Source: a virus. From it: 40,158 bases of DNA. Both the position numbers and the translations under genes were made by a program. The stretch lies in IMG/VR virus record IMGVR_UViG_3300027763_000107, positions 1-40,158 of that record. The stretch is one strand, 5' to 3'. The notes beneath the pieces were generated by a model. That model saw only the letters and a program-made list of their open reading frames with translations. It was not told the origin of the DNA and ran no database searches. How positions within the stretch are numbered: the stretch's first letter is position 1; every line of letters starts with the position of its first letter. Shown here in pieces: positions 20,311-40,158 of the stretch.

Positions 20311-20389
20311 AGTTTGATACTTAGAAGTGCATGAAACTTTAATAAAAAATGTATCGTATATTAAACATTTATATAAGTTTTTGTATATT

Positions 20390-23385: not shown

Positions 23386-23386
23386 T

Positions 23387-23821: not shown

Positions 23822-23822
23822 T

Positions 23823-24113
23823 ATGAGTCGCTTACATGACCATTACTACGAGCCTGACGATTACGATGATCGCTCAGATGAGATCGAGGAGCGCACTTGG
23901 GAGCTAATGAAGCCAGGCGCTGAATACGATTACAGAACAACTCAAGCAGTTGCAGAAGCTATGGGGGATCTAGATAAAGAACGAGCTGATTCCCTACAAG
24001 CCATTATTGATACCCAAGATTACGAACAAATTGGTAGAAAAGTAATGATGATGGCTTTGGATTACATGGAACACTATGCCCAAAATGCAGCAGAACGAGA
24101 AATCAACGACTAA
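23823..24113 (+). CDS. Acidic hypothetical protein
   Basis: 96 residues, MSRLHDHYYEPDDYDDRSDE at the N-terminus and very acidic throughout (DDYDD, EIEER). The C-terminal helices (QAVAEAMGDLDKERADSLQA and QIGRKVMMMALDYMEHYAQN) look ordered. Strong AGGAGGG site inside the upstream gene. Acidic phage proteins of this kind sometimes mimic DNA; no evidence for that beyond composition. Confidence 0.6.
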   Translation: MSRLHDHYYEPDDYDDRSDEIEERTWELMKPGAEYDYRTTQAVAEAMGDLDKERADSLQAIIDTQDYEQIGRKVMMMALDYMEHYAQNAAEREIND

Positions 24114-24123
24114 GGAAAAAGTG

Positions 24124-24663: not shown

Positions 24664-24712
24664 AGCCATTTTTGATGAATTTTTAAGAAAAGAAAAGGAA
24701 GCTCGCAAATGA
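24635..24712 (+). CDS. Possible 25-residue overlapping ORF
   Basis: An alternative frame starting inside the end of the Sak3-like gene encodes MPKKQNWEHKAIFDEFLRKE plus KEARK and stops at a TGA that overlaps the next ATG (ATGA). It covers the 45 bases otherwise left between genes. No ribosome site precedes its ATG, so it may be chance. Confidence 0.25.
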   Translation: MPKKQNWEHKAIFDEFLRKEKEARK

Positions 24713-24798
24713 GTATTTTTATAGCATTTTTAGCTTTTACTGGAGCAGTAACCTGGTTAGTAATTGGTGCAATGCTTATTTATATATGGATGGAATGA
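24709..24798 (+). CDS. Very small membrane protein
   Basis: 29 residues: MSIFIAFLAFTGAVTWLVIG then AMLIYIWME, one long hydrophobic helix. AAAAGGAAG precedes the start. It is followed by an overlapping TGATG start of the next gene, indicating coupling. Unknown function. Confidence 0.6.
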   Translation: MSIFIAFLAFTGAVTWLVIGAMLIYIWME

Positions 24799-25007
24799 TG
24801 AACAATAAACCAGTAGCGTGGACTGCTTGTTTAAGTTGTGGTCAAAAAGTTACAAGCGATTCTATTCACACTTGTTCGCCACAATTAAAGACACTAACAG
24901 ATGAGGAAATAGAAAAAGTGTTTGTGTTGAATTGCAATCTTATAAATGAAACTTTTGCATATAGGGATTTTGCTAGAGCAATACTAAGAAAGGCACAAGA
25001 GAAATGA
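24798..25007 (+). CDS. Hypothetical protein with possible zinc site
   Basis: 69 residues from the ATG at 24798, which overlaps the preceding TGA (TGATG); in-frame ATGs at 24786 and 24795 are possible. The first part contains CLSCGQKVTSDSIHTC (three cysteines and a histidine, possible zinc knuckle). The remainder is helical (DEEIEKVFVLNCNLINETFA, YRDFARAILRKAQE). It ends by overlapping the exonuclease start (ATGA). No family recognised. Confidence 0.6.
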   Translation: MNNKPVAWTACLSCGQKVTSDSIHTCSPQLKTLTDEEIEKVFVLNCNLINETFAYRDFARAILRKAQEK

Positions 25008-25654
25008 CAACTTTTACAACAGAAGATAGAGTTGCTTGCATACAACAAGGAACTGATGAATGGCATCAACTTAGATTAGGAAAAGTTACCGCTTCTAGGG
25101 TTGCAGATATACTGGCTAAGACAAAATCAGGCCCCTCAGCTAGTCGAGGTAACTATCTGATTGAGCTTGCCTTGCAACGAGTTACAAAGACCATAGAGGA
25201 ATCATACCAAAATGAAGCTATGCAATGGGGAACTCAAACAGAACCGCAAGCCAGGGTTGCTTATGAAGTTAAAACAGGCAATTTTGTGGATCAGATCGCC
25301 TTTGTCAATCATCCTACTATTGCTGGCTTTGGTTGTTCTCCTGATGGCTTGGTTGGAAACGATGGTCTTATTGAAATTAAATGTCCAAACTCTGCTACGC
25401 ATTGGGGCTACATAAAAGCCAATGAACCACCTAACAAATATGTTATTCAGATGCAGGCTCAAATGGCAGCTACAGGGGCTAAATGGTGCGACTTTGTAAG
25501 TTTTGATCCAAGGATGCCTGAGCGCAGTCAATTATTGATTGTTCATGTTCCTAGAGATCCTGAGTTCATTTTGTTTATGGAAACAGAAATTAAGCAATTT
25601 TTAAGTGAAGTAGAAGTTGAAGTAAATCTTATGGAGAAGCGCAATGGCAATTAA
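25004..25654 (+). CDS. YqaJ / lambda-type 5'-3' exonuclease
   Basis: 216 residues, the size of lambda Exo (226). N-terminal QQGTDEWHQLRLGKVTASRV (conserved E/W-xxR-xGxxTAS), then E80 in WGTQTEPQARVAYE, and the catalytic PD...E-x-K set: SPDGLVG with D114 and GLIEIKCP with E124-x-K126. Then YVIQMQAQMAATG, the conserved Q-helix. It should resect double-stranded ends to give 3' overhangs for the Sak3-like protein. Start overlaps the previous stop by ATGA. Confidence 0.9.
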   Translation: MTTFTTEDRVACIQQGTDEWHQLRLGKVTASRVADILAKTKSGPSASRGNYLIELALQRVTKTIEESYQNEAMQWGTQTEPQARVAYEVKTGNFVDQIAFVNHPTIAGFGCSPDGLVGNDGLIEIKCPNSATHWGYIKANEPPNKYVIQMQAQMAATGAKWCDFVSFDPRMPERSQLLIVHVPRDPEFILFMETEIKQFLSEVEVEVNLMEKRNGN

Positions 25655-25892
25655 ATATTTCGTAAAAGCAGCAGTATCAGAGTATGAAGATAAGACCGAT
25701 GGCAAAATGAAAAAGCGTTATCAGTCTATTGGAGTCATCATGGAAACTAAGCATGGCCTTATGCTCAAAATTGAGTCTTTGCCTATCTATGCCATGAAAG
25801 AGGGTTCAATCTTTGCTTATTTAAATGAACCTGAAGAAAAAGGAGCAGCTCCAGCAAAGCAATCTAATGATTTGGATGATCCACCATTCTAA
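25644..25892 (+). CDS. Small ssDNA-binding protein candidate with SSB-like tail
   Basis: 82 residues. The N-terminal ~60 residues are beta-rich (MAIKYFVKAAVSEYEDKTDG, KKRYQSIGVIMETKHGLMLK) as in a short OB fold. A flexible EEKGAAPAKQS linker follows, and the protein ends NDLDDPPF, very like the acidic-PF tip of bacterial SSB (DDDIPF). It overlaps the exonuclease end, with GGAGAAG before its ATG. Role proposed: coat ssDNA and recruit host repair proteins through the tip. The family is not identified by sequence alone. Confidence 0.6.
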   Translation: MAIKYFVKAAVSEYEDKTDGKMKKRYQSIGVIMETKHGLMLKIESLPIYAMKEGSIFAYLNEPEEKGAAPAKQSNDLDDPPF

Positions 25893-25900
25893 GGAGAAAT

Positions 25901-26107
25901 ATGAACAACGAACATATTTGGACTGTTTCAGGAACTGATATTACGATTCGATGGAGGCTTGCTGGATGGACTCCTCCATCAGAATTACAGGAATATATAG
26001 ATAAATGGGCTTACTGGCAAAATCTTCCGTTGCGTAAACTAGATGACCAGGCTAAACAACAATACGAGGCTGTATTGCGTAAAGCCAAAGTTGCGAGGAT
26101 CAAATGA
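25901..26107 (+). CDS. Hypothetical protein
   Basis: 68 residues, MNNEHIWTVSGTDITIRWRL, then AGWTPPSELQEYIDKWAYWQ and a basic helical end RKAKVARIK. Good AAGGAGAAAT site. The tryptophan-rich WRLAGWTPPSE segment resembles small proteins near aquatic phage recombination genes. Its TGA overlaps the next ATG. Function unknown. Confidence 0.6.
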   Translation: MNNEHIWTVSGTDITIRWRLAGWTPPSELQEYIDKWAYWQNLPLRKLDDQAKQQYEAVLRKAKVARIK

Positions 26108-26295
26108 TTTACGAAAAAATCCCTTTTGCTGGAGAAATAGCAATTCCTGAAGATGAGTGCGAAAGACAGTTTTTTGAAACTTTTCCTGATGTCTTTAACA
26201 CCAATGAAGTTGCTTTAAAAGTTTGGACTATGGCTTGGATTAAAAGCCGTATGTTTACCCTTAAAGATATGGAACAGGAATTTAAAAAACTTTAA
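26104..26295 (+). CDS. Hypothetical protein, last of the plus operon
   Basis: 63 residues: MIYEKIPFAGEIAIPEDECE, RQFFETFPDVFNTNEVALKV, WTMAWIKSRMFTLKDMEQEF. A mix of acidic and aromatic residues, helical at the end. Coupled to the upstream gene by ATGA. Its stop overlaps that of the minus-strand gene at 26292, giving a convergent end without a clear terminator. Confidence 0.6.
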   Translation: MIYEKIPFAGEIAIPEDECERQFFETFPDVFNTNEVALKVWTMAWIKSRMFTLKDMEQEFKKL

Positions 26296-26432
26296 CCTTT
26301 CATGGGATGAGCCTTGTTCATAGGCTCTTTCTCATGTTTTTTTAGTTCTTGTTTAACTTCATAAACAGCATTACGCAGTTTAATTACTTGCGCTTCCTCA
26401 CGCTTTTCATGTTTTTTTGTTTCTTTAATCAT
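26292..26432 (-). CDS. Small charged helical protein, end of late arm
   Basis: 46 residues: MIKETKKHEKREEAQVIKLR, NAVYEVKQELKKHEKEPMNK, AHPMKG, strongly charged coiled coil. Preceded by AGGAGCATAAA after the endolysin stop. It is the last gene of the long minus-strand late arm and converges on the early operon. Function unknown. Confidence 0.55.
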   Translation of the reverse strand: MIKETKKHEKREEAQVIKLRNAVYEVKQELKKHEKEPMNKAHPMKG

Positions 26433-26433
26433 T

Positions 26434-27030
26434 TTATGCTCCTAGTATGTCCATTGCTTTATGAATTCGATCAATACGATCTTGTAACCCAATAGTGCCA
26501 CCATTGATCCGCTTGGTCATGGTAGCCCAATCTTCATTATCTGACAACGCATTTAAGCCACGCTTGTTAAAGAACCAGCCAGCAGATAGACAAGCGTTCT
26601 CAGGCTCTAAAATAAGCTCAGGATGCTCCGCAAAAGGCTTTCCTAGGGCTAGTCCACATACTGTATAGTTTGACCGCCCTGTGAGCTGAATTAGACCCCT
26701 TCCATGAAATCGCCAACCATCTCCATCTTCAGTATTTCCTAGATCAGCTCTGCCACCATAAACTTTATTGGCAATTCTTTCAGGTTTACGCTCATACTCT
26801 GAGGCAAATTCAATGTTATGGAATCGACTAGGCCATGTAGCAACTAAGCCTTTAGCGCTGTAATTGAGGTTTTCTTCTAAGACTTTAAATGAGGCAGATT
26901 CATGACCGCATTGTCCAATAAAAGCTGCCTGGCGCTTCGGAGTGTTTATTTCATACTTTTTGAAAGTAGCGTTTAATCCATCAAGCCATTTAGGATCTAT
27001 TCCTAAAGCCTGTAATTGCTCTGATGTCAT
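26434..27030 (-). CDS. Endolysin, GH19 (chitinase/lysozyme-like)
   Basis: 198 residues, typical of phage GH19 endolysins. Residues 31-60 have RQAAFIGQCGHESASFKVLE with the catalytic E44 and the next Glu nearby. YGGRADLGNTEDGDGWRFHG and RGLIQLTGRSNY (about 91-122) form the substrate groove, with ending DRIHKAMDILGA. No signal peptide, so export depends on the holin immediately upstream, whose stop overlaps this start (ATGA). It hydrolyses peptidoglycan of a Gram-negative host. Confidence 0.9.
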   Translation of the reverse strand: MTSEQLQALGIDPKWLDGLNATFKKYEINTPKRQAAFIGQCGHESASFKVLEENLNYSAKGLVATWPSRFHNIEFASEYERKPERIANKVYGGRADLGNTEDGDGWRFHGRGLIQLTGRSNYTVCGLALGKPFAEHPELILEPENACLSAGWFFNKRGLNALSDNEDWATMTKRINGGTIGLQDRIDRIHKAMDILGA

Positions 27031-27428
27031 TCTTTTTTAGCTTTCATATCCATGATCTTTTCTAGAGTGCGACCCCCAAAATAGAAAGACATAATTAACA
27101 TACCCCATTGACCTAACAGCTCTACATAAGCTCCCCTGGTTTCATGCCCAAGCATAGACATAAAAGCAAAAAATGTATAAACAGCCAAAATAAATATAAG
27201 GGTTAAAGGTCTAATATTTTTAGACAAAGTAGAATCAGAAGCCATATCAGCTTGCTGTCTTTTAGTAAGTTCTTGTTGCTCCGCAGTATCTGCTGCAATT
27301 TGAGCTAATTCGCCATTTTGCTGCATCTGCAATAACTCTAGCTGTGCTTTAGCTTTTTGCTCAGGATCAGGAAAGAATTTATCAATTAGCTTACCGCCAA
27401 TATCTAGTAATGCGCCTAATGGAAACAT
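27027..27428 (-). CDS. Holin, GTA-type 3-TM family
   Basis: 133 residues. N-terminal amphipathic region FPLGALLDIGGKLIDKFFPD, a Gln/Glu/Ala coiled segment (EQKAKAQLELLQMQQNGELA), then two strong hydrophobic segments: LTLIFILAVYTFFAFMSM and WGMLIMSFYFGGRTLEK. This matches the GTA_holin_3TM class, whose first segment is the weaker N-terminal helix. Coupled to the endolysin gene. Forms holes that release endolysin at lysis time. Confidence 0.8.
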   Translation of the reverse strand: MFPLGALLDIGGKLIDKFFPDPEQKAKAQLELLQMQQNGELAQIAADTAEQQELTKRQQADMASDSTLSKNIRPLTLIFILAVYTFFAFMSMLGHETRGAYVELLGQWGMLIMSFYFGGRTLEKIMDMKAKKE

Positions 27429-27884
27429 TTAAAAAGCTCCTAAAACAAATTTAAGCCACAAAGTGACCATTAATGCAGCTAGAAAACAATAAAACTGAAC
27501 TCTGCGAACTGCTTTTAAATCATGTTGATATTCTTCGTTGTCTTTGCGTTGCATATTCTCTATATCTAACTTTATTTTTAGCACCGCTTCCCACTCTTTT
27601 GCTCCGTATTTCTTAACAAAGTCTATTTTTAACTTTGCTTCTTCATCACTTATTTGCTTCTTATGCTTCCAAGAATCTAAAGCCTTAATTAACGCTCTTT
27701 CCTTCTTAAACTCTGTTTCTCGCCTTGATCTAATCCGTTCATTGGCTTGCTTTTGAGCTACTTCTAATCCATCTTTTTGAATGTTTTCTATGGAGCTAGA
27801 TAGCCCCTTACTGGCTTCTCTAGTCGCATCTATAGATCCACTAAGAGCTTTTACTCCTTCTGCAATTCCATACGGATCGGACAT
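27429..27884 (-). CDS. Hypothetical lysis-cassette protein with C-terminal TM
   Basis: 151 residues. Long charged coiled coil (KQANERIRSRRETEFKKERA, EEAKLKIDFVKKYGAKEWEA) and a single C-terminal transmembrane segment (VQFYCFLAALMVTLWLKFVL). Located between the XhlA-like gene and the holin in the same frame order. It may be a membrane-anchored cytoplasmic or spanin-like protein; no lipobox is visible. Family not recognised. Confidence 0.55.
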   Translation of the reverse strand: MSDPYGIAEGVKALSGSIDATREASKGLSSSIENIQKDGLEVAQKQANERIRSRRETEFKKERALIKALDSWKHKKQISDEEAKLKIDFVKKYGAKEWEAVLKIKLDIENMQRKDNEEYQHDLKAVRRVQFYCFLAALMVTLWLKFVLGAF

Positions 27885-27890
27885 ACATTT

Positions 27891-28121
27891 TCATTTTCCT
27901 GAGAAATGGCTTCCAATAAATCCCACAATTCCGCTAATTGCAGATACGATAGCCATTCCAACCCAAAAGCCACCTCTAGATTGATTTGCAAGTGCGACAA
28001 GCTCCTCTAATTTAGACTCCATTTTGTCAATTTTTTGCGACATTAGTTCTAATTGCTTTTCGTTATTCTCTACAGTATTCCAAAGAATTCCGTATTTAAC
28101 TGGATCGAGTTCAAATGACAT
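27891..28121 (-). CDS. XhlA-like small membrane protein with coiled coil
   Basis: 76 residues from the ATG at 28121 (GTG at 28127 would add MD). Coiled coil ENNEKQLELMSQKIDKMESK LEELVAL, then one TM segment (FWVGMAIVSAISGIVGFIGS) and a short tail. Same plan as 3150-3359 but not the same sequence. XhlA-type proteins assist holins. First gene of the lysis set after the collar-type fibre. Confidence 0.7.
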   Translation of the reverse strand: MSFELDPVKYGILWNTVENNEKQLELMSQKIDKMESKLEELVALANQSRGGFWVGMAIVSAISGIVGFIGSHFSGK

Positions 28122-28129
28122 ATCCACGC

Positions 28130-28870
28130 TTAGCCCTTCATAATGTAAGCAAGAGCATAGTAAGGAGGAAGATTAGCGTTAGTTCCGCTTACACCAGCAG
28201 TAGCATTAGTTACGCTAATTCCAGTTGATGCTGCAACAATACTTAATGTTGCTGGTGTTCCTGGATTAGCTACCGCACCACCAGGAGCATTTTGTTGGGC
28301 AGTTCCAACTAAAGATGTTCCAGGGCTAGTTGCATGAGTATGAGTAGGATCAGTAACACTTGCAGTATGAGTATGAGAAACAACAATAGCATCGGCAGAA
28401 CCACCAGTTGCATTTACAGCATAAGTAGATCCAGCTCCAACAATAAAGCTATTGCGTAAATCAGGAGTTCCGTTTGTTCCATCGCATAAATACCAAGTTG
28501 CAGGAATAGAACCAGTAGATCCTGACCAAAGAATAATTCCTCCAGTAGGAACAGCAGGGGCTGATGCAGGAGCATTTTGCAGAATTGGATAAATATTATC
28601 TAATGTTTGGATCAATACAGAATTTGCTGTTTGAAGAACAAACTTATATGAATAGCCAGTAAGTAGCCAAATTTCTTGTGGAACTCGACCAGCAGCATCT
28701 AAAACAATAGGGTTTGCATTAGCAATCGTTCCAGCATTAGTTGTATAGGTTACTAATGGAGTAGAAGATCCAGCTTGATAGGTATAAATCAAACCTCCAG
28801 CTAAAGGAACTCCATTGTCATCAAAAAATTGCTGACCGATTCCGTATGGGGATAAAAGAACTGATGCCAT
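28130..28870 (-). CDS. Short tail fibre with collar-like domain
   Basis: 246 residues. N-terminal anchoring region MASVLLSPYGIGQQFFDDNG with GGLIYTYQAGSSTPLVTYT, an anchor found on P22-like virions as I recall. From about 110 on: GGIILWSGSTGSIPATWYLC DGTNGTPDLRNSFIVGAG. The G-I-I-x-W...P-x-x-W-x-L-C-D-G...D-L-R-x-x-F pattern is a tail-collar domain. Its tip has HTHTASVTDPTHTHA and PPYYALAYIMKG, as in collar/T4 gp12-like short fibres with His-bound metal. It follows the ejection gene cluster and precedes lysis genes. It probably contributes to adsorption. Confidence 0.75.
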   Translation of the reverse strand: MASVLLSPYGIGQQFFDDNGVPLAGGLIYTYQAGSSTPLVTYTTNAGTIANANPIVLDAAGRVPQEIWLLTGYSYKFVLQTANSVLIQTLDNIYPILQNAPASAPAVPTGGIILWSGSTGSIPATWYLCDGTNGTPDLRNSFIVGAGSTYAVNATGGSADAIVVSHTHTASVTDPTHTHATSPGTSLVGTAQQNAPGGAVANPGTPATLSIVAASTGISVTNATAGVSGTNANLPPYYALAYIMKG

Positions 28871-28872
28871 GA

Positions 28873-31146
28873 TTATTCCTTGCCTATGTCTTTAAGTTTG
28901 ATTCCTGCGCCTGGTTTTAACGCTTCTTTAATTTTTTGAGCTTCTTTAACATTATGAATTGCGCTTCTTGCTATTGTTCCAACAGGAATGACATTTCCAC
29001 CCAAAGTGTAATTTAAACCAATTTCTGCTGCTTTTTTACCTTTTTCAGCCATTGCTGAAGTAAATGTATTAGATTCATTTACATAAGCTCCTGCTGGTCT
29101 TTCTTGAATGTTTCTTGCAGTCTTGCCCAATGCTTTTAATTGAGAATTAACTTCAGGGCCAACAATAGCTAAAATTTTAGGATCAACATTGCTTAGAGCT
29201 TGATTAAATCCTTTTTGCGTAAATGTTCCTGATCCATCAGGCAATATTCCAGCTTTAGATTTAAGCCAATTAACAATTCCAGCAGCCATAACTTGTCTAG
29301 CTTGAGAGTCTGCTCCCAAATGAGAAACCATCATGTCAATATCATTTTTTTTGCCATTAACAACAAACTTTTGAATAAAATCATCAGCTTGAACTTTTCC
29401 ATTAATAGCAGCTTTGTAAGCCTTGTCTTGGTTAATTAAATCAAAACGCTGTTTAGCAGCAGATCTAGCATCATCAGCCAAAACTTTTAATTCTTTGGTT
29501 TCGCCAATTAAAGGCAAATCTTCTAAAGCCTCCCTTACTTTTCCAAGAGCAAATTCAGCGTTTCCATCTCCAGCTCTATCGGCTTTACGCATTTCAGAAG
29601 CAAGGTTGGTTCTCATTGCCTCAAACTGCTCAAAAGTCATGGGTTCGCCACGCTTGAACGCATTAACTTGCCTCATTATCGAATCAGGCAAAAACTCTGT
29701 TTTAAGATTTTTCTTTAAAGAATTTAAAGCGTTTTCAGCAAAAGCTACACCATCTATAGGAAAATCGCCTCCAGCAGCATCTCTTAATGCTTGATATTTA
29801 GTTCCAATGACTTCTAATCTAGCTTTATCAATATCTTTATATGAATCAATTAAAGATTGACCATTTTCTACATGGTTTGTTCCATACACATCAGGAGAAG
29901 CTTTTTCTTTAATGGCATCAATGTTTTCAACAAGCTGTCTATTTTGCTCATTGTATCTATTGGCTAATTCAGGATTTTTACCTCTGCTATTCATTTCTTC
30001 AGAAAATAACTGAGGGCTTCTAGTCGCTTGACCCTCAGATAAACGAATAGGAATAGGCAAAGAATCAGCTTCTAGCTGGCGCTCTAATACAGGAGCATTT
30101 ACTTGTTCAGGCTTTAGCTTTTGTAATTCTTGTTTTAATTCAGGACTTGCTCTAGAAATTGCATCTTGCAATACAGTTTCTTTGGAAACTTGTGCAGCCC
30201 CAACTCCAGCCATAGTTGGCTTAACTTCTTCCATCTTAGGAAATGCTTCTTCAAACTTTTTGCCCAAAACAGCTTTAGCTTTTGAACCACCTTCAGACAC
30301 TTTTTCAAGAACTTTTGCACCGCCAGGAATAGCGACAAATTGTTCAGGATCATAAATTGCACTCTTAACAACCTCTCCAGCAAATCCACCAGGATTCTCT
30401 GCGATTGCGCTTAATGCTTGTTTTGTAGTTTCTACTGGGCTTTGAGCAAACTTGCTGACACCCTCAACAAAACTCTTACCTTTTTTAATTAACTTTTCTT
30501 CGGCAGCTTTTTTATCAGTTTCAGTAAAACCTGGGATGCCAAGGCTTGAAGCTGTATATTCAATAACAGGAGCTAATAAGCTCTTTTCTTGCCAATCTTT
30601 AGCAGATATTTCAGATAAAGGTTTTACAAATTCTTTGCCCAATTTTTTAGACATTTCGCCCATTTGCTTAATAGCTGGTTTTTCAACTTTTTTGCCATCT
30701 GAAGGCGCAACATCGCCAACTTCAGTCCAAATATCAGCAAAGCTAGTGCTTGCAGGAGCGCCAGCAACTGTTACTGATGGGCCTTTAGCAACATAAGAAG
30801 ATTTTGGGTTAATCTCTACATGAACTGGATCTTTAGATCCAAATGGTCTATGAAGTCCAAATTGATCTAAAAATGCAGCAGGAACTTCAGAAGAAATATC
30901 CGCAGCCATACCTTTTTCATGCAAACTTGTGCCAGGCTTTGCCACCAAATTAGGGTTAGATTTTCTTTTTCCAAATAGCTGTATTTGTTCTTCGGTTGAT
31001 CTTGCTCCGCTAGTTAAAGGCAATTCTCTGCCTGTTTTAGCTTGCCAAGCATCATTAGCAGCTCTAAGCCTGCTAGACATATCCTCATTTAAACCGCCAA
31101 ATCTATCAACTGGCGCTGCTTCCCAAAGATCAGCAAAATTAGCCAT
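28873..31146 (-). CDS. Ejection protein with N-terminal M15 peptidase (P22 gp16 position)
   Basis: 757 residues (P22 gp16 is 609). Residues 22-115 form an M15 (VanY/L-Ala-D-Glu endopeptidase-like) domain: LTSGARSTEEQ, SLHEKGMAADIS with H76 and D83, and DPVHVEI with H109. The remaining ~640 residues are helical and Ala/Lys/Glu-rich, e.g. AMAEKGKKAAEIGLNYTLGG, without known motifs. This is typical of a DNA-injection channel protein. It is the last of three ejection-type genes. It would cut the host peptide crosslinks during entry and line the injection channel. Confidence 0.8.
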   Translation of the reverse strand: MANFADLWEAAPVDRFGGLNEDMSSRLRAANDAWQAKTGRELPLTSGARSTEEQIQLFGKRKSNPNLVAKPGTSLHEKGMAADISSEVPAAFLDQFGLHRPFGSKDPVHVEINPKSSYVAKGPSVTVAGAPASTSFADIWTEVGDVAPSDGKKVEKPAIKQMGEMSKKLGKEFVKPLSEISAKDWQEKSLLAPVIEYTASSLGIPGFTETDKKAAEEKLIKKGKSFVEGVSKFAQSPVETTKQALSAIAENPGGFAGEVVKSAIYDPEQFVAIPGGAKVLEKVSEGGSKAKAVLGKKFEEAFPKMEEVKPTMAGVGAAQVSKETVLQDAISRASPELKQELQKLKPEQVNAPVLERQLEADSLPIPIRLSEGQATRSPQLFSEEMNSRGKNPELANRYNEQNRQLVENIDAIKEKASPDVYGTNHVENGQSLIDSYKDIDKARLEVIGTKYQALRDAAGGDFPIDGVAFAENALNSLKKNLKTEFLPDSIMRQVNAFKRGEPMTFEQFEAMRTNLASEMRKADRAGDGNAEFALGKVREALEDLPLIGETKELKVLADDARSAAKQRFDLINQDKAYKAAINGKVQADDFIQKFVVNGKKNDIDMMVSHLGADSQARQVMAAGIVNWLKSKAGILPDGSGTFTQKGFNQALSNVDPKILAIVGPEVNSQLKALGKTARNIQERPAGAYVNESNTFTSAMAEKGKKAAEIGLNYTLGGNVIPVGTIARSAIHNVKEAQKIKEALKPGAGIKLKDIGKE

Positions 31147-31148
31147 AG

Positions 31149-32411
31149 TTATAGCAATCCAAGTGATTTAGCCAATTTAATCTTATCGCCCATTCGTCTT
31201 TGTTCATCAGGACTCATAGAAGCCTTTAGCTTTCTAACTTCTTCAGGACTAGATTCTTGGAAAATTCTGTAATCATTAATTTTATTAAAAATTGCCATCT
31301 TATCTTGATACTCTTGAGGATTTTTAACATTACCCAAATAAGTAGCTTTTGCTTGATTTAAGCGTTCAACACCAATAAGCTGATCTGCCATTAACTTGAT
31401 AGCGCCTTCAGTCATTTTCTTATTAGGATTGGCTGCTTCTGCAATTTGACGAGCCAAATCAGTATTGCCACCAGTTAAGGTTAGCATTGCTGAATTTTTA
31501 GCCAATTCATCTGTAGCAGTTTTTTCGGCTGTATAAATATCAATTCCAAGTGCTTGAGCAATGCCTGATGCCAATTCTTTTCTAGCACCGCCTGTGCTTG
31601 TAAATGCTTCAGAAGAAAGTTTTTTAATGTTTTGAAATGTTGCAATTCTAGGTTCTGCACCTTTAGCCAAAGCCATAGTTTCAGTCAAATCTTTAGAAGC
31701 AATTTCTGATGGAGTTGTAGCAAATGCCACATCAGCTCTAGATGGATTTAGCTTTTTAGGAGCAAACTGTCCTTGCAACTGAGCAGGAGCGCCTGTAGTA
31801 GGAGCAGTAGAAGCACCAACTTGAGCGTTACCCTCGCTTGGAGAAACAATTTGATTAGGCCCTGATTTAAGACCAATAATCTCGCCAGCAGCATTAGTAG
31901 TGTATTGAGGAGTTTGAAGTCCTTGCTGACCAGTTGCGCCTATACGAGCTTGAATTGAATTCAGCATATCTTGACGAATATTTCCTGCTTGGTTTGGATC
32001 GTTAAGCATTTGAAAATATTTAGCTGTAATGGTATGAGCCATAGGAGCAGGAACTCCTTGCTTAATCATACGCTCAGTAGCCCCAACCAAAGCATCTCCA
32101 GCAGCAGTAACTGTTTTACTGTCTTTAGGATTAACATTTTTTAATCTTGGATCATCAACTAAAGCATTTGCTTCATCGGCAGCAATACCAAAATAATCTT
32201 TTTGAAGTCCTGCTTTTGCTTTTTCAGCACCAGTAACGGCAGTAGAAGTTTCAGCTTTGGCTTTTTCAATAGAAGGCTGAAATAATTCTTTTTCTTTTTG
32301 CAAAGCAAGATTAGATCTTCCAAGATTAACTAAATCCTGTATAGATGTTGCTTGTGGAGCTTGAGCATTTCCATAAATGCTTGCATCAGGTAGAGAGCTA
32401 AGTGCTGGCAT
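31149..32411 (-). CDS. Ejection protein (P22 gp20 position)
   Basis: 420 residues (P22 gp20 is 471). Predominantly helical, rich in Ala, Lys, Gln and Glu (ALQKEKELFQPSIEKAKAET, MPAL SSLPDASIYGNAQAPQ at the start). It lacks Cys, and signal or TM segments are absent. Its place between a gp7-like and a gp16-like protein in the same order as P22 gp7-20-16 marks it as a DNA-injection protein. Sequence identity to P22 is not visible, so the call is from order and composition. Confidence 0.65.
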   Translation of the reverse strand: MPALSSLPDASIYGNAQAPQATSIQDLVNLGRSNLALQKEKELFQPSIEKAKAETSTAVTGAEKAKAGLQKDYFGIAADEANALVDDPRLKNVNPKDSKTVTAAGDALVGATERMIKQGVPAPMAHTITAKYFQMLNDPNQAGNIRQDMLNSIQARIGATGQQGLQTPQYTTNAAGEIIGLKSGPNQIVSPSEGNAQVGASTAPTTGAPAQLQGQFAPKKLNPSRADVAFATTPSEIASKDLTETMALAKGAEPRIATFQNIKKLSSEAFTSTGGARKELASGIAQALGIDIYTAEKTATDELAKNSAMLTLTGGNTDLARQIAEAANPNKKMTEGAIKLMADQLIGVERLNQAKATYLGNVKNPQEYQDKMAIFNKINDYRIFQESSPEEVRKLKASMSPDEQRRMGDKIKLAKSLGLL

Positions 32412-32421
32412 GATTTATTCC

Positions 32422-33177
32422 TTATGCTACTTGAACTGGAGAAACAGCAAAAGAATTGCCTGAAGTGGGAGTAAATGATCCTCCTCCTGCATTACCACCC
32501 ATTGCAGCTTGCGTTGAATTAATTGGCTGATTCATATTATTCATAGCATAATAAGCTGCTGCATTTCCTGCTGTATTAGCTATGCCACCATAAATATTGC
32601 CTTGTGCAATTTGAGAAGCAGCTTGAGCATTACCAGCAGCAGAAGTTAAATTTGCAACATTTGTGCCAGTTCCAATCATTGCGTTGGCTTGACCAGTTGT
32701 TCCTGTTAATCCCATAGATGCAATATTTTGCAAGTTAGAATAAATATTACCTCTTTGAACTTGAAATTGATTAAAAGCATTGGCATATTCGCCTGAAGCA
32801 AAGTTTTGGCTATAATCCTGTAAACTACGCAAAGCATTACCACCTATAGCTCCGCCACCAACATTACTAGCCATCATATTAGCTTGCTGACCTTGACGCA
32901 ATCTAAAGTCATAACCAGGAGCTAAAGTAGCATTTAAATCTTTATTAGTAAATTGTTGAGTAAAATAAGGATCTTCACTCATTTTATTAAGAGCTGTAAC
33001 TCCTTTATTGACATAAGGGTTATAAACATCAGCTGCTGCTGCTCCAGTTGCCAATAATTGACCTTGCGCTCTAGCTGCTGCATCGGCTTGAGTTTGAGCT
33101 GCGCTTTTAGTTGCTTGGCTGGTCATGTAACCGCCAATAACTGCGCCTCCTACGATTGCTGTTGCGACTGCTGACAT
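32422..33177 (-). CDS. DNA transfer/ejection protein, P22 gp7-like
   Basis: 251 residues (P22 gp7 is 229). The glycine/alanine-rich N-terminus (MSAVATAIVGGAVIGGYMTS) is membrane-active-looking. QTQADAAARAQGQLLATGAA, VNKGVTALNKM, the ...APGYDFRLRQGQQA motif and SGEYANAFNQFQVQRGN are recurrent in small phage ejection proteins of this type. The C-terminus is Asn/Gly/Ala-rich. First of the ejection triad. It leaves the virion with the DNA and probably forms part of the membrane channel. Confidence 0.7.
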   Translation of the reverse strand: MSAVATAIVGGAVIGGYMTSQATKSAAQTQADAAARAQGQLLATGAAAADVYNPYVNKGVTALNKMSEDPYFTQQFTNKDLNATLAPGYDFRLRQGQQANMMASNVGGGAIGGNALRSLQDYSQNFASGEYANAFNQFQVQRGNIYSNLQNIASMGLTGTTGQANAMIGTGTNVANLTSAAGNAQAASQIAQGNIYGGIANTAGNAAAYYAMNNMNQPINSTQAAMGGNAGGGSFTPTSGNSFAVSPVQVA

Positions 33178-34011
33178 TTAATCTCTCCTTATTGCAAGGC
33201 TTAATGCTTGCCGATAGTCAATAGTAATTTCTTCGCCCAAATTACCACCTTGGCATCCATTTATAGCCTTTTTTGCCACTAAATCAATGTTCCCATTATC
33301 TCTTAAAACCATGATTGCGTTAATATTTTTTGAATGATTTGTGTATCTACCAGCAGGGGTTCGTTTGCCATTAATACGAGCTGGAGCAATAATTTCACTT
33401 TCTGCAATATTGCCTGTAGCAAATACACCTTTTCCATCAATTCTTGAATTAGCAACCATTATTTTGTAATTGCCAAAAGGCATAGGAATTTGATCTTCCA
33501 TGTTTTCAGTCTGTTTTCTGACTGTTTCATGGTCAAATCCAAACTCTGCTATTGCCAAATAATAATCGGCAATATCAGGCGAATGGTCTAAAGTAAGAAG
33601 TAATTCCTGTGATTTTTGATTTTCTTGCCAAGTAATGCTTTTATTTAAATAAATAGCTTCTAGCTTTTCTACTTCAGTTTCATTAGTTGAATAGACATTT
33701 TGCCAAACCATATCTTCATGGATATAGCCTATTTTGCGACCTGGCTTTGAAACAAAAGTCTGAGGAGCTACCAATTCTGTATGCGATCCATCCTCATTAA
33801 CCATTGTTACTCGACCTTTGAGCATAATGTTTAAATGCTCAGTAGTCTGATAATGCCCAATAGAAAATGTTCCTGCTGGAATGGATACTTCTCTAATGTA
33901 GATATTAGGAGCAAATATATGCTTTACAGGGCAATCAGCCTGTTTTTCTTTTAAAAAGTGCTTTTCAAGTTCTTGCACCTTTTGTTCTATTATGACTTGA
34001 AGTTCAGACAT
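33178..34011 (-). CDS. Cupin-SET fusion protein
   Basis: 277 residues from the ATG at 34011, which overlaps the end of the preceding gene; the in-frame upstream extension would overlap it further and has no ribosome site. N-terminal cupin (about 30-125): YIREVSIPAGTFSIGHYQTT EHLNIMLKGRVTMVNEDG, with H53 and H59 as candidate ligands. A helical linker (about 126-182) follows. The C-terminal SET domain (about 183-267) has GKGVFATGNI, the GRYTNHSKNINA segment (matching R-F-x-N-H-S-x-x-P-N) and GEEITIDY (matching G-E-E-L-x-x-D-Y). SET proteins methylate lysine using SAM. The target is unknown; it lies between nozzle and ejection genes, so a virion or host protein is possible. A non-catalytic binder is the alternative. 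Confidence 0.75.
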   Translation of the reverse strand: MSELQVIIEQKVQELEKHFLKEKQADCPVKHIFAPNIYIREVSIPAGTFSIGHYQTTEHLNIMLKGRVTMVNEDGSHTELVAPQTFVSKPGRKIGYIHEDMVWQNVYSTNETEVEKLEAIYLNKSITWQENQKSQELLLTLDHSPDIADYYLAIAEFGFDHETVRKQTENMEDQIPMPFGNYKIMVANSRIDGKGVFATGNIAESEIIAPARINGKRTPAGRYTNHSKNINAIMVLRDNGNIDLVAKKAINGCQGGNLGEEITIDYRQALSLAIRRD

Positions 34012-34243
34012 TGTAATAAGGCACTTTATAGATCTTGCCATTAACAGACATTTCAATAAATCCTACAGGATTAGCTGGCAAAACAGCCCCCCCTGATGTT
34101 GCTGAAGGCGCTGTTCTATTAAAATTAAGCAAATTTGAAAAGAAAATCTGCCAAGCTCTTGTCGGTCTTTTGGTCTGCTCATCCATAAAATCAGTCTGTG
34201 GATAAGGATTATCTTGGCTTGGCCCAAATATCTGATTAGCCAT
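34004..34243 (-). CDS. Hypothetical protein of the tail-ejection module
   Basis: 79 residues: MANQIFGPSQDNPYPQTDFM, DEQTKRPTRAWQIFFSNLLN and an ending VGFIEMSVNGKIYKVPYYNV. The TRAWQIFFSNLL and GFIEMSVNGKxYKVPYY elements recur in small proteins of this place in P22-like aquatic phages as I recall. Start overlaps the nozzle stop; end overlaps the cupin-SET start. A structural or assembly role is likely but unproven. Confidence 0.6.
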   Translation of the reverse strand: MANQIFGPSQDNPYPQTDFMDEQTKRPTRAWQIFFSNLLNFNRTAPSATSGGAVLPANPVGFIEMSVNGKIYKVPYYNV

Positions 34244-36372
34244 TAGTTTTCTCCAACTGATGCTTTTAAGTTAGCAGACACTATCACCGCTTTAACTGGA
34301 TCAGTAACTACGACTTCATAGATTCGATCCCTTGCCTGACCTAATCTGCGCCAAATAATACGATTTTGGTATTTACCGACTTTACCAATACCAGCCCAAT
34401 GCTCATTTGACCAAGTAGAACCGCCATCATTTGACCATCTCAGCATAGCTTGAGGGTTTATACCAATGTCGTTATCGCCCAATGGAAAAGTTTCTACGCC
34501 TTGCAATCCAACTCCAGGTTGGAACTGTATCTGCAATTCATCAAAATACTGCCTTTGGAAGTCTGTTACCAAATGAGGGCATCTACGCATCCTACGGATA
34601 TTCTGACCATTATCGGTATAGTTATTAGGATCTAAGCGATAAATCTGCCCATTCTCCCAATCTCCTACCAAAACTGAACCTTGGAAAAAGGCAGCGCAGT
34701 TTGATCTGTGGCGCTTATAGTTGTTTTGGTTATCGCACCAAAGCCATTTATGCCACATTTGGGTAGAGCCGTCATAAACCCAAGTTAAGTCTAGGCTTGG
34801 AAATGTCACTACATAGCACTCATGCCCTTCTAGCTGATATGTATAAGCTACAGCATCGCCAATATATTGATTAACAAGGGTATTTTCTACAGCATGAGTA
34901 GAAATTCTTTGTGGAAAATAGCCATTCATTTGCACAATAACGGCTTGACCACGATCATTTCTTGAAACATAAGCAAAAGAATTGCCAAATCGAGCCATAC
35001 TAAATTCAGCAGCTATTCCATGTTGGCTAGATGCGCCAGGAATACGCTGGAAAGGAAATGGGAAAGTTCCAACATCTGCCCACACTTCTGAAGTTTTTTC
35101 GCCTAATAAATAGATTTGACCATGATCCACAATTAAAGAAACAAGATCATCAGGCCCTGTAAATTTACTAGCAAAAGCCAATCCATAAGTAATAGGGGAA
35201 AGCAGATCAGAAGAAGCATATTGCTGAGTATTAGGTCTGTTATAGACAAAGTAGTTATCTACTACATCAACAGAAGATCCGCCTGTAAATGCTCCATCTG
35301 TCGCTGGTAACTCGCTAAAGTTCAGCGCATACATAGTTCTAGAGGTAACAGTTTGGCTATTATTGATAACATAGTTACCAGTAGTTCCAGTTCCTGTACC
35401 AAAAGTCAAAGTAAGAGTTAGCCCTGTTCCTGCTCCATCTGAGGAAGTTGAAGCATTGTTTGCAGGGTTAGATGTATATTGACCTGAAAAAGTCCTTGTA
35501 AGCCCTGTAACAGCTCCTGAGCCTCCAATACTTGTTACTGTATAAGTAGCAGGGCTAGAACCATAAACACCGCCCAAAACAGTTATATTTTCGTTTACTG
35601 CATATCCTGTGCCAGCAGCAGCGATTGTTTCGCTAAGAACTGTTCCGCTACCTAAAGCAGTAATAATGGTTTTAGCCGTTACTGTAGAACCTTGAATAGT
35701 CTGTCCAACATACAAAGTTCCGCTTGCTACAGCGCTAACAGTCAAAGTGGTTGTTGCCATAGAAGCTGTTATTACCGCAGCTACAGTAGCTGAATTCATG
35801 CGAATTGCAGTAGAAATAGTATGACTTTGATTTAAAGTCCAAGTGCTTCCTGATCCTGAAACAATGACAGTTTCATTAGAAATGCCAACTCCAAATAAGG
35901 CTTGATTGGCAGCAATAGTTCCTGAAAGAACTCTAGTTACAGTTAAAGTAGTTCCGCTAATTGTGCCTTCAAATACAGCAGAATTTGGGTTAGAAATGCG
36001 CCATGTATAGCGATTTGAACCATCTACGATATAGACATTAGTGCCATTATCGGCAATGCTAACTTGACCAGTTGAGGTATTTAATTGACCAATAATAGTT
36101 GCTGTAAAGTTTGTTCCCATTACATAAACATAAGGGCCACATACCGCTACAAGGTAATCTTGACCTGAAACGGCTCTCATTCCTCTAACAGCTTGAGCAG
36201 TTTGTAGTGTTACGACATTAGTAAGACCTGGAGTTGGATAAAGCGCAACAACTCCCCTTGATCCTGGTTGTTTTGTAGGATCAATTTCAGGTCTAAAGTT
36301 TATACACTCCTGTGCATCTTGATAGATGGAAGGAGCTTCATAAGCCGAACCAACAAAGCCAAAATCAGCCAT
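34243..36372 (-). CDS. Tail nozzle, P22 gp10-like, with beta-repeat insert
   Basis: 709 residues; P22 gp10 has 472. The N-terminus MADFGFVGSAYEAPSIYQDA with ECINFRPEIDP and the region LYPTPGL are typical of gp10 (packaged DNA stabilisation). The core resumes from about 346 (YALNFSELP, DNYFVYNRPNTQQYASS) to the C-terminal region YRLDPNNYTDNG. Between about 134 and 345 lies a Thr/Ser/Gly-rich insert with several [18 protein letters not shown] units. Without it the length (about 497) is close to gp10. It plugs the portal-adaptor channel until injection. Located beside the gp4-like adaptor. Confidence 0.8.
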   Translation of the reverse strand: MADFGFVGSAYEAPSIYQDAQECINFRPEIDPTKQPGSRGVVALYPTPGLTNVVTLQTAQAVRGMRAVSGQDYLVAVCGPYVYVMGTNFTATIIGQLNTSTGQVSIADNGTNVYIVDGSNRYTWRISNPNSAVFEGTISGTTLTVTRVLSGTIAANQALFGVGISNETVIVSGSGSTWTLNQSHTISTAIRMNSATVAAVITASMATTTLTVSAVASGTLYVGQTIQGSTVTAKTIITALGSGTVLSETIAAAGTGYAVNENITVLGGVYGSSPATYTVTSIGGSGAVTGLTRTFSGQYTSNPANNASTSSDGAGTGLTLTLTFGTGTGTTGNYVINNSQTVTSRTMYALNFSELPATDGAFTGGSSVDVVDNYFVYNRPNTQQYASSDLLSPITYGLAFASKFTGPDDLVSLIVDHGQIYLLGEKTSEVWADVGTFPFPFQRIPGASSQHGIAAEFSMARFGNSFAYVSRNDRGQAVIVQMNGYFPQRISTHAVENTLVNQYIGDAVAYTYQLEGHECYVVTFPSLDLTWVYDGSTQMWHKWLWCDNQNNYKRHRSNCAAFFQGSVLVGDWENGQIYRLDPNNYTDNGQNIRRMRRCPHLVTDFQRQYFDELQIQFQPGVGLQGVETFPLGDNDIGINPQAMLRWSNDGGSTWSNEHWAGIGKVGKYQNRIIWRRLGQARDRIYEVVVTDPVKAVIVSANLKASVGEN
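35338..35973 (-). repeat. Beta-repeat insert in the nozzle gene
   Basis: Codons for about residues 134-345 of the nozzle contain repeated units of the type G-T-x-x-T-V-x-x-V-x-S-G-x-(x)n-G-x-G-I/V. The same unit type appears in the adaptor (36940-37323). They resemble extended loops or Ig-like add-ons on an otherwise conserved protein. Confidence 0.6.
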
Positions 36373-36381
36373 TTTCCAGCC

Positions 36382-37578
36382 TTATCTAAAGAATCCACCA
36401 TTAAGAATCCAACCAGCATCTTTTTGACGGCTAGAAAGCATTGCATCAGCAAACTGAGCGCTTTGCATTGGTTTCATATTAGTGCGTTTAAGAGTTGCTT
36501 TAGCTTGTGCAGCATAAGCGTTAATCATCTGTATTTGCGTTGCAGAGGCTTTGCCATACATAGGCATCAAACGCTCTGCCAAACACCATCTAAGAGCCAT
36601 TGAATAGCCTTGTGGAAGAACTATATCGTCATACATAGTGCCATAGTTACTAAATATGGTTTGAGCAAACAAATGGACTTCGCCTTGGGATGGATTAGGC
36701 CATAAGAAAACATTTCCTGATTGCTCATTTGCATTGAAATAAACAGCTTTAGGCCAAGGGCCATTGAGCGTTTTCAAACCAATAGAATTGTAATTATCCA
36801 AAGCCAAAATTGCCATTTGGTAATCTAAACCGCCATTAGCAATAGGCTGACCATTAGAGCTAGTGTTTACCCTTACATAGGCAGAATCTAATCCTAATGG
36901 TTTTTGATAGTAAGCAGTTATCGTTGTAGGAACAATAGTTCCAGTAATAGTTGTAGAAGCTACAGTTTGAGATGCGCTTACTGTATAAGTTCCAGTTCCA
37001 CCAGTTCCGCTAACTAAAGCGCTGATGGTTGTTCCAGCAGTAATACCAGTTCCGCTAATCACCGATCCAACATTGACAGCTCCTGAAGTAACCGCAGTTA
37101 CAGTAAGGGTAGTCCCTGATATTGAGCCTGTAAATACTGGGGTTTGAGTACCTTGAACAATATTAAGCAAATAAGTGCCTTGTTCATTTACATTACCGCC
37201 AGCTCCAGTTAAAGAGCGAACAATACGAGTTCCAGCAGTAATGCCTTGACCTTTAAGATATTGTCCTTGTGCTACAGCTCCTGAATTAATGCCAGTAACT
37301 GTCATTACATTGCCTGAAAAAGTAGCAGGAAATGAAGCTCCAATAAAGTTTGCAGTAGATGGATCAGGGCCAATCGTATATTGAACTTGTCCTGGAACAA
37401 CTGGGAAAATGATCTCAGTAATGTTAAAAACCATCATATCCTCATTTGACCATTGGTCTATGAGGTCATTCATCATTTCAAAAGCATCTTGAGCAGCATC
37501 GGCTGAAGGCTGTTCTCCAGCCTCTAAAGCTCCAATGTCTTTAAGCGATCTACTAATAATATCAATCGGCTTTGTCAT
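36382..37578 (-). CDS. Head-to-tail adaptor, P22 gp4-like, with beta-repeat insert
   Basis: 398 residues; P22 gp4 has 166. N-terminal helices [20 protein letters not shown] and [20 protein letters not shown] match the gp4 pattern, and the C-terminal helices [20 protein letters not shown], with a final MLSSRQ-containing tail, are also gp4-like. Between about 86 and 213 are two ~63-residue beta-repeats ([20 protein letters not shown] and [20 protein letters not shown]). Next to the P22 gp10-like nozzle. The adaptor joins portal and nozzle. The repeat insert accounts for much of the extra length. Confidence 0.75.
36940..37323 (-). repeat. Two tandem beta-repeats in the adaptor gene
   Basis: Codons for about residues 86-150 and 151-213 of the adaptor are two diverged copies sharing T-V-T-x-(V/I)-x-S-G-A-V, G-x-G-I-T-A-G-T and a T-Y-L/T-V ending. 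The unit type also occurs in the neighbouring nozzle gene. Confidence 0.6.
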
Positions 37579-37581
37579 AAT

Positions 37582-37893
37582 TTATCCAATGTTAAAAGTA
37601 TTGGTTTCCCAAGGAAAATCAATCTTTTTGCTTGTTTTTAGTGCTTCTAGCTGGTTTTCTAGGTTTGATTTTATAAGGTTTACATCATCTTGGGTAGTAT
37701 CTTGCTCAATCCAGCGAGTTAAATCATCTTCTTTAATTTCTGATACAGGCTTAATAATTGTGCCTTCAAGGAAAGTATGCTCTCCTTCAGTTTCAACAGT
37801 ATTTTGCTCATCTTGTGCTTTCAGTAAATAACGAACTTTGGAAATCGTCTGATCCCCAAATATTTCTAAAATTGACCATGTATAAGTAATCAT
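37582..37893 (-). CDS. Hypothetical protein, fibre-adaptor junction
   Basis: 103 residues: MITYTWSILEIFGDQTISKV, RYLLKAQDEQNTVETEGEHT, then an acidic helix ending KKIDFPWETNTFNIG. The ITYTWxIxxxxG and DxxVxxVRYxLxAxD patterns recur in short proteins of cyanophages and other aquatic phages. It overlaps the fibre-associated gene by TAATG-type contact and precedes the adaptor. A structural role is likely but not proven. Confidence 0.6.
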   Translation of the reverse strand: MITYTWSILEIFGDQTISKVRYLLKAQDEQNTVETEGEHTFLEGTIIKPVSEIKEDDLTRWIEQDTTQDDVNLIKSNLENQLEALKTSKKIDFPWETNTFNIG

Positions 37894-38279
37894 TATTCAA
37901 CCAATAACCAAGATGTAGTTGTTTCATTCCACACATACTTTTTTCCATCAGCAGGACATGGTATTGGCGCTTCCCATAACCATGTAGATTGATTTAATAC
38001 CCAACTTGAGTATGGTTTAGGCGCATAAAACACATCATTTATTGAATCATAAGTATAGCCATTAGCAGCGTAATTACCACGCAAAGGAGTGCCACCTAAA
38101 GAAAACGCATTATTTTCTGAATCATAGGTGTAGTTATTAACGGCATGATGTCTGTTTCCATGCGTATTGTATGAAGTTTGAATCCATCCATTGCCAAACA
38201 TACCGCTATCAATAACATCTTGTTCAGCAACAATAACTTGGGAAACAACACCATCTATAACTTTAGCAAAATGACTCAT
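37893..38279 (-). CDS. Tail-fibre-associated protein, cyanophage-type (right copy)
   Basis: 128 residues, opening MSHFAKVIDGVVSQVIVAEQ. Compared with 3359-3700 it has an extra 15-residue stretch (HHAVNNYTYDSENNAF region) that duplicates the later YTYDS element before LGGTPLRGNYAANGYTYDSI. The Trp-rich end NQSTWLWEAP...TTTSWLL is kept. The ATGA overlap with the glycine-rich gene is the same as on the left. Confidence 0.65.
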   Translation of the reverse strand: MSHFAKVIDGVVSQVIVAEQDVIDSGMFGNGWIQTSYNTHGNRHHAVNNYTYDSENNAFSLGGTPLRGNYAANGYTYDSINDVFYAPKPYSSWVLNQSTWLWEAPIPCPADGKKYVWNETTTSWLLVE

Positions 38280-39169
38280 GCTGTATAACTCCCTGAAGAA
38301 GTAAAGCTAACAATAGTATAAGAACCGCTAGTAGTAATTGTTGGAGAACCAGTAGTTGTTCCTGAGTATTGTGAAGTTAATATTTTTAAAATTACAATTC
38401 CTGAACCGCCTGACCCTGAAGTGGCAGATGTACTATATCCACCATTTCCACCACCACCACCGCCAGTATTAGCTGTTCCTGATGCTTGACCTGAACCAGG
38501 GTTTCCAGCTCCACCTTGACCACCACCGCCTGAACCGCCAGTACCTCGAGTGGTATTAGCTCCACCGCCACCACCACCGCCATAAGTTACGGAAGAACCA
38601 GTAATGCTTGATTCGTACCCTGAACCACCATTACCACCATTACCATTAGCATTTGTTCCAGCAGTACTAGCACCGCCACCACCACCGCCTGAAGCTGCGG
38701 CAGCTCCATTACCGCCACGATTTCCTTGTGAAGAAATACCATCACCACCAACACCGCCAGGAGCAGTATCAACACCGCCACCGCCACCACCTGATCCACC
38801 CATGCGACCACTTAATAAAAATCCACCTGAATTAGGAGGAACTCCATAGCCACCACCACCACCGCCATTAGCATAGATGCTTGCAAAAGAACTTGCAGCT
38901 CCAGTATTTCCAATTAATCCGTCTGAACCACCAACTCCAGCACCACCAGCACCAACAGTTGCTGTGTAAACATTTCCTTTAATTAAAGCTAAGTTTGTGC
39001 CATATAAGACACCACCAGCTCCACCTCCACCGCCAACATTTCGACCACCACCGCTACCACCACCAGCAACTACTAAATATTCAACTCCATAAACAAGTGT
39101 TGGAGCAGTAGATTGTGTTGAGTTATCGTTAAATGTAAGACCAGTAGTCCCATTAATAATCATTGTCAT
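38276..39169 (-). CDS. Glycine-rich tail-fibre adhesin (right copy)
   Basis: 297 residues, the same length as 3697-4590 and about 92% identical by eye, with no gaps. Differences cluster in the loops between glycine runs (for example GNAGVGSSF versus GNTGAASSF, GSGYASS versus GSGYESS). N-terminal MTMIINGTTGLTFND and C-terminal GIVILKI and ITTSGSYTIVSFT are almost unchanged. Two related alleles of the same adhesin in one window are the main sign of a duplicated or chimeric fibre region. Confidence 0.8.
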   Translation of the reverse strand: MTMIINGTTGLTFNDNSTQSTAPTLVYGVEYLVVAGGGSGGGRNVGGGGGAGGVLYGTNLALIKGNVYTATVGAGGAGVGGSDGLIGNTGAASSFASIYANGGGGGGYGVPPNSGGFLLSGRMGGSGGGGGGVDTAPGGVGGDGISSQGNRGGNGAAAASGGGGGGASTAGTNANGNGGNGGSGYESSITGSSVTYGGGGGGGANTTRGTGGSGGGGQGGAGNPGSGQASGTANTGGGGGGNGGYSTSATSGSGGSGIVILKILTSQYSGTTTGSPTITTSGSYTIVSFTSSGSYTA

Positions 39170-39333
39170 GCTAATTGCTCCTGTGTAGGTCTAGACAATG
39201 TTGGATGTTCCCACTTAGCTATATAGTCACCTTTGCCGTCTGAATCGTTTTGAAGAATGATTGAACTATATCTTCCAAAATCAGCTTCGGTTAATGTCGG
39301 ATATAAAGCCATAATTTTTTCGTATAAAGTCAT
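39166..39333 (-). CDS. XkdW-like small fibre protein (right copy)
   Basis: 55 residues from the ATG at 39333 (MTLYEKIMALYPTLTEADFG), which forms TAATG with the upstream stop; a longer frame starting 21 bases upstream exists but overlaps that gene. The C-terminal 35 residues (ILQNDSDGKGDYIAKWEH, ending PTQEQLA) match the left copy (4587-4748). The KEKDFMTV part of the left copy is replaced by TEADFGRYSS here. Confidence 0.7.
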   Translation of the reverse strand: MTLYEKIMALYPTLTEADFGRYSSIILQNDSDGKGDYIAKWEHPTLSRPTQEQLA

Positions 39334-39974
39334 TATGCAGCCCTTACTAAACAACCATTTAATGTAGTTCCACCTGAACCGCCATTTAATGCACCATTAG
39401 TTCCACCAGTCATATAAACATATAATTCTGCATAATCAGTAGAACCATTCATATAAACTACTACGGAAGTGCCAATAGAAAAAATTTGATTTGTTCCGCT
39501 AGAAAATTGACTAGCTGAAACTGCACCACCATTTTTATAAATAGCTACTTGTCCATTATTAGGATAAGTTCCACCAGCAGAACCCATGCTTGCATAACAA
39601 TTAAACTGATAATAACCAGCAACAGTAGGGGTAAAACGATAATTAGTGGTATTAAAGTTACTGTTGGTATCAAAATCTTCTGCACTTAAACTTGCCTTAG
39701 TCCAAGTCGATTGTGAGATACCGCCTTGATAGCCTGATATGTACCCACTAAAAGCTGGTCCATTACCGACTACATTGGTTGCTAGTTTAGCTTGTGTTAC
39801 TGAAGCATCAGAAGGTGTAATCGTACTTGCAGTAGTTAATATTGTTCCTGTTGCATTAGGAACAGTAATAGTATTTGCACCATTTTGAGTTTGAAAAGCA
39901 AGATTACCTGATGTATCACCAGCAATAGCTATTGCAGTTCCACTTGTAGTTCCAGCAGATATAGTAGATGCCAT
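39333..39974 (-). CDS. Tail-fibre tip with C1q-like head (right copy)
   Basis: 213 residues. The N-terminal attachment region MASTISAGTTSGTAIAIAGD and NTITVPNATGTILTTAS align with the left copy's. A linker (DASVTQAKLATNVVGNG) absent from the left copy follows. The head TWTKASLSAEDFDTNSNFNT, RFTPTVAGYYQFNCYASMGS and ELYVYMTGGT...GCLVRAA keeps the C1q-like strand order but differs from the left head in most loops. Suggests tip replacement after the conserved anchor. Confidence 0.7.
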   Translation of the reverse strand: MASTISAGTTSGTAIAIAGDTSGNLAFQTQNGANTITVPNATGTILTTASTITPSDASVTQAKLATNVVGNGPAFSGYISGYQGGISQSTWTKASLSAEDFDTNSNFNTTNYRFTPTVAGYYQFNCYASMGSAGGTYPNNGQVAIYKNGGAVSASQFSSGTNQIFSIGTSVVVYMNGSTDYAELYVYMTGGTNGALNGGSGGTTLNGCLVRAA

Positions 39975-40158
39975 TATGCTACCCCTAATATAGCTTTAAC
40001 TTCATCGGCAGTTAAGCCAAGTGCAGTTAGCTTAGCTAGTGCAGAAGCCCTTGCTGTTATTTTATTTTCTTCAGCTTGGTCTGCTTGTGCTTTTGTAGAA
40101 ACCCATAAAGCATCAAGCTCTGATTTAGTAGGCTTTGGTGAAGAATCTAACCAATCCA
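39974..40158 (-). CDS. Fibre-assembly-like protein, 5' end cut by window edge
   Basis: The last 61 codons of a homologue of 5317-5580 (SPKPTKSELDALW, then the helix and LGLTADEVKAILGVA). One base differs from 5317-5501, and the change is silent. The upstream part, including the start, lies beyond the right edge. Confidence 0.75.
   Translation of the reverse strand, partial: DWLDSSPKPTKSELDALWVSTKAQADQAEENKITARASALAKLTALGLTADEVKAILGVA

Follow-up and report, generated by a model that had tools for sequence, protein, structure and literature searches.

The described phages closest to the genome that fills most of the window, by which we mean the whole stretch of 40,158 bp analysed here, are podophages with a P22-type portal. 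The window's portal is 66.7% identical to that of Caudoviricetes sp. MW202674, 68.3% to that of MW202520 (both from Manatee Spring), 40.3% to that of Rhodoferax phage P26218 and 39.5% to that of Thalassomonas phage BA3, in records of 33.6–37.3 kb, and the first three also match the nozzle gene on the right-hand side of the window. However, all four have only distant sequence similarity to the window, and the 17 records with a match to the nozzle gene at its left end include none of them. A P22-type portal (phrog_156), a large terminase (phrog_2/3717) and an Hc3 nozzle (phrog_578) occur together in the genome that we call A, which, with a circle that fits the range of about 34–37 kb, is a P22/BA3-like podophage. 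Its large terminase (14906–16192) has relatives of 56–59% identity in Nitrosospira and Nitrosovibrio chromosomes, in probable prophages; this is no more than a hint that lineage A may have betaproteobacterial hosts.

The ends that assemblers leave on contigs have also been described. In the COBRA simulations, end sequences of maxK length were found at breakpoints for both metaSPAdes and MEGAHIT (PMC10914622), and the published JGI recipes use the k list 33,55,77,99,127 for metaSPAdes (PMC7171226) and --k-list 23,43,63,83,103,123 for MEGAHIT (PMC6081815). The window resembles the COBRA cases in having a suffix of exactly maxK bases that is shared elsewhere, at a branch from a shared region or strain variant, but differs in that its overlap points inside its own contig, 5.4 kb from the start, which makes the contig a lasso. 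Checking whether the two ends are equal does not reveal this overlap, and the record is classed as 'linear'.

The last 185 bp of the window (39974–40158) equal 5317–5501 at an offset of 34,657 with a single mismatch, a match far beyond chance expectation, and on this our comparison agrees with the preliminary description. The mismatch is a silent base, T at 5374 and C at 40031, after which the two copies are identical for 127 bp (40032–40158 and 5375–5501), up to the contig's final base. No exact repeat in the window is longer, and the next has 85 bp; the left end of the contig has no match elsewhere within the window. The right edge cuts through an 87-aa gene on the minus strand, so that 39974–40158 is the 3' part of a copy of 5317–5580; rebuilt across the join with 5502–5580 as its 5' part, the gene has the same translation as 5317–5580. 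Beyond what had been noticed earlier, a wider likeness links 39846–40158 with 5189–5501 (91.7% identity) and 37890–39356 with 3356–4771 (88.0%).

When a variant is followed by a shared stretch, the graph of a de Bruijn assembler branches where the shared k-mers begin, and any edge ending at that point carries k shared bases. The terminal match of 127 bases is as long as the largest k that JGI's published recipe gives for metaSPAdes, and T5374 and C40031 stand immediately before the shared 127-mer. A second record, L083 (IMG record 3300009180_000417), which corresponds to window positions 25141–40154 across 15,014 bases at 99.99% identity, stops 123 bp past the same variant, and 123 is the largest MEGAHIT k. 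A toy graph of the circle plus the arm held a single internal branching 127-mer, at 5375/40032, which had two incoming paths and one outgoing path. Its first copy (5375–5501) is where the left and right arms both enter the circle; its second (40032–40158) is the vertex at which the contig stops, and the silent base at 40031 creates the branch. So the window contig and L083 end at one assembly-graph branch, and the ends at variant plus 127 and variant plus 123, together with the single branching 127-mer, place the right edge under the control of the assembly graph, not of biology. The window record was presumably assembled by metaSPAdes at k=127, and L083 probably with k=123; the assembly graph at the branch and the abundance of the arm are inferred.

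A short near-exact repeat at a contig end would also fit a linear genome whose direct terminal repeat varies between strains, but the partner copy (5317–5501) lies 5.3 kb inside the contig and not at the opposite end, and in two assemblies the match breaks off at the value of k, 127 in one and 123 in the other. Moreover, relatives differ in the gene at which they are opened, and their ends overlap exactly by 127, 123 or 118 bp, as expected of circular paths. We consider a terminal repeat very improbable and rejected it, since a repeat should stand at both ends and the second copy is internal. The preliminary description had offered a terminal overlap with strain variation as its alternative; the overlap does sit at a SNP, but the end is the SNP plus k and not a biological repeat.

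The join is present in a third contig. Record L244 (3300027973_000590, 9,324 bp) follows window positions 36696–40158 and then directly 5502–11362, with one mismatch, and carries the C variant. The IMG identifiers of L083 and L244 differ, but the two may derive from the same lake, or even be two assemblies of one set of reads. At 98% identity or more, 5189–24918 and 25141–40158 are covered by records other than the window, and L083, L163, L164, L192 and L244 together cover the circle at this level except for 24919–25140 (222 bp). Four relatives of genome A close by exact end overlaps into circles of 33,490, 34,361, 34,502 and 35,582 bp, and the complete relatives have their genes in the same order as the joined circle. 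From the offset, the join in L244 and the circular relatives we take 5375–40031 as genome A, a circle of 34,657 bp that was linearised by the assembler at the branching 127-mer and is probably circularly permuted in virions. That the contig closes into a circle of about 34.7 kb, with one continuous late arm across the join, had been proposed in the preliminary description; the circle is borne out by the passage of L244 from 40158 to 5502, by the shared gene order and by relatives circular at 33.5–35.6 kb.

The late genes of genome A lie on the minus strand. A head module of capsid, scaffold, portal and large terminase (10110–16192) is found in A records only, as is the native nozzle or head-closure Hc3 gene (34243–36372; phrog_578, 343 bits), whose product has sequence matches in the PDB to 9vyg 'Stabilization protein' and 7eeq 'Needle head proteins'. 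The native adaptor-like gene (36382–37578) has a SU10_adaptor domain in its C-terminal half (Pfam, 29 bits) and is 91–96% identical in the closest A relatives and 62–65% in more distant ones. Its product carries an additional N-terminal region, for which Pfam gave a weak Cu-oxidase match barely over the cut-off, and part of it resembles residues 128–302 of the nozzle protein. The native fibre cassette (37890–40158; 128, 297, 62, 213 and 87 aa) is contiguous with 5502 in L244 and is present in L083 at 100%. Elsewhere in the circle, a segment of a DNA methyltransferase gene (22196–22648) shares 75–77% identity with segments in unrelated phages of Acinetobacter, Salmonella and Klebsiella.

The left 5,374 bp (1–5374) have other relatives, and from the comparison of lineages among the records we assign them to a second podophage lineage, B, as a foreign arm whose fibre cassette is mosaic. 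No other record covers 1–5188 at 98% identity or more, and the best relatives of 1–3359 (L003–L006) are about 91% identical in nucleotides and carry other head genes. All genes of the arm described here are on the minus strand. At its end is a nozzle-like gene truncated by the left contig end (2–1501; phrog_5107, and phrog_578 at 51 bits), which is found at 76–99% identity in 18 B records and is absent from 22 A records. Its top PHROG match, phrog_5107, is labelled 'amidase', a label that may be wrong; position and phrog_578 suggest a nozzle protein. Since a search of solved structures with this protein gave no match, its role is assigned from position, phrog_578/5107 and the neighbouring adaptor. 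The latter, the lineage B tail adaptor (1501–2157; SU10_adaptor, PF24175, Pfam, 48 bits), is 69–99% identical in eight B records. Both lineages use the same kind of tail, with a SU10-type adaptor and an Hc3-like nozzle, and the arm is thus functionally redundant with the right arm. Next come four small genes (2204–3359; 81, 61, 116 and 69 aa), all with homologues in B records, of which only the 81-aa gene (DUF6321) also has homologues in lineage A (41–45%). This gene, at 2204–2449 and matching DUF6321, is homologous to a small gene at 17044–17322, with about 42% identity between the lineages; the B copy stands in the tail module and the A copy upstream of the terminase. The proposal that the left 5.3 kb or so are a foreign, redundant arm with its own adaptor and nozzle therefore stands, as SU10_adaptor and phrog_578 are found in both arms, but the XhlA-like gene that had been named there is not supported, 3150–3359 having given no PHROG or Pfam match.

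Of 40 records, 18 have the left nozzle, 19 the window's portal and 19 the right nozzle; the 22 without the left nozzle have the portal or the right nozzle, and in no record does the left nozzle occur with either. Two IMG/VR records with the tail of the left arm, 3300027763_000194 (G002) and 3300042445_000177 (G018), share its nozzle (99% and 88–89%), its 218-aa adaptor and its small-gene order, but they have other portal, terminase and capsid families (phrog_1216, phrog_267) and are without the arm's 113- and 297-aa cassette genes. G018 is circular, at 34,694 bp, and has its own capsid, scaffold, portal and terminase. As phmmer found no match between the window's portal, terminase or capsid and ten late proteins of G018, the owner of the arm is not a close strain of A. 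The idea that the contig joins two related phages sharing a fibre cassette is therefore upheld for the cassette, but not for close relatedness.

A genuine linear genome of 40 kb or longer, with a real duplication of the fibre cassette and two sets of tail-tip genes, is how the deposited contig reads, and the 88–92% identity between the cassettes would suit an old duplication. Against this, L244 contains the join, near-identical contigs of genome A exist without the arm, neither tail type is accompanied by the other in any of the 40 records, and the terminal match is exactly one k-mer. We rejected a real duplication, which the join in L244 already contradicts, as having next to no chance of being correct.

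The fibre cassette of the arm (3356–5501; 113, 297, 53, 189 and 87 aa) is homologous to that at 37890–40158, with the 88.0% and 91.7% identities given above and a profile compared per 100 bp. The right arm thus contains the entire small fibre cassette a second time, in a form in which the 189/213-aa gene between the conserved parts is strongly diverged. The arm's 113- and 297-aa genes were not found in B records, and a search for relatives of the 297-aa gene yielded nothing but the right-arm version (92%) and a single weak match, the arm version being found nowhere else. L003 and L005 have a homologue of the 87-aa gene immediately ahead of the B 69-aa gene, so that in the arm four genes stand between genes that adjoin in other B phages. 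The arm is thus itself a mosaic, in which a tail module of type B gives way at about 3356 to a fibre cassette resembling the one in the circle. The junction at 3356, the boundary of the 113- and 69-aa genes, was compared with L003:3226–3302. There is no exact 127-base repeat there, so a k-mer shared within the window does not account for the change at 3356; a natural exchange of fibre cassettes between co-occurring phages is the more likely origin. The C-terminal motif ALAKLTALGLT of the 87-aa protein is also present where the homologous genes of G002, G036 and G038 end, which demonstrates a common gene family but does not date the exchange.

A natural hybrid is conceivable, in which the head and body of A are combined with the tail module of B, the arm continues from 5502 on, and the hybrid co-occurs with the A circle. 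The arm's fibre cassette already resembles that of A, and its last 185 bp are near-identical to A, so that a departure of B upstream of 5501 would be out of sight. However, the left nozzle and the A portal are not combined in any of the 40 records, and the 51-bp stretch with the arm's T variant at the branch had no exact match when all viral contigs were searched. We regard such a hybrid as unlikely, and it is similarly doubtful that in some virions the A body is truly continuous with 1–5374, with adaptor and nozzle swapped in from an unrelated lineage and the A portal and capsid kept.

Almost certainly, the window is a lasso contig, made of the 34,657-bp circle of A and a 5,374-bp arm of a second podophage lineage that shares the fibre cassette. 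The overlap, its exact length, the way two assemblies end at SNP plus k, the presence of the join in a third contig and the mutual exclusion of the tail types were observed directly. Being circularly permuted, the 34,657 bp of A would yield a circular path in the graph. The B sequence (1–5374), from a second phage in the sample, would be identical to A in a stretch of the 87-aa cassette gene after one silent SNP, and its path would run into the A circle at the 127-mer 5375–5501. The assembler would have walked in along the B arm and once round A, and stopped on meeting the same vertex again, which accounts for the terminal overlap of exactly k bases; B's own sequence probably leaves A again upstream of 5501.

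The 40-kb genome with two adaptors and two nozzles is thus a product of the assembly rather than a novel type of phage, and the deposited record of 40,158 bp should be read as circular A (5375–40031) together with a 5,374-bp piece of a B-type phage. Read literally, the record gives wrong gene counts, a wrong length (40.2 instead of 34.7 kb) and a false phage with two adaptors and two nozzles; biological interest is limited to the mosaicism of the arm. Lassos are missed by circularity checks for equal ends, and a simple test is to look for an exact suffix of length k inside the contig. A survey of other loci for such ends gave no more cases, an outcome of little weight because most of the loci are cut stretches or fragments. 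Among 18 other full-length records examined, five (G046, G026, G029, G008 and G023) are lassos with a short tail, in which the suffix recurs exactly (125–127 bp) at 6–211 bp after the contig start. These records are classed as linear, and the circles they imply are of 35,020, 36,452, 39,791, 36,771 and 39,332 bp, respectively.
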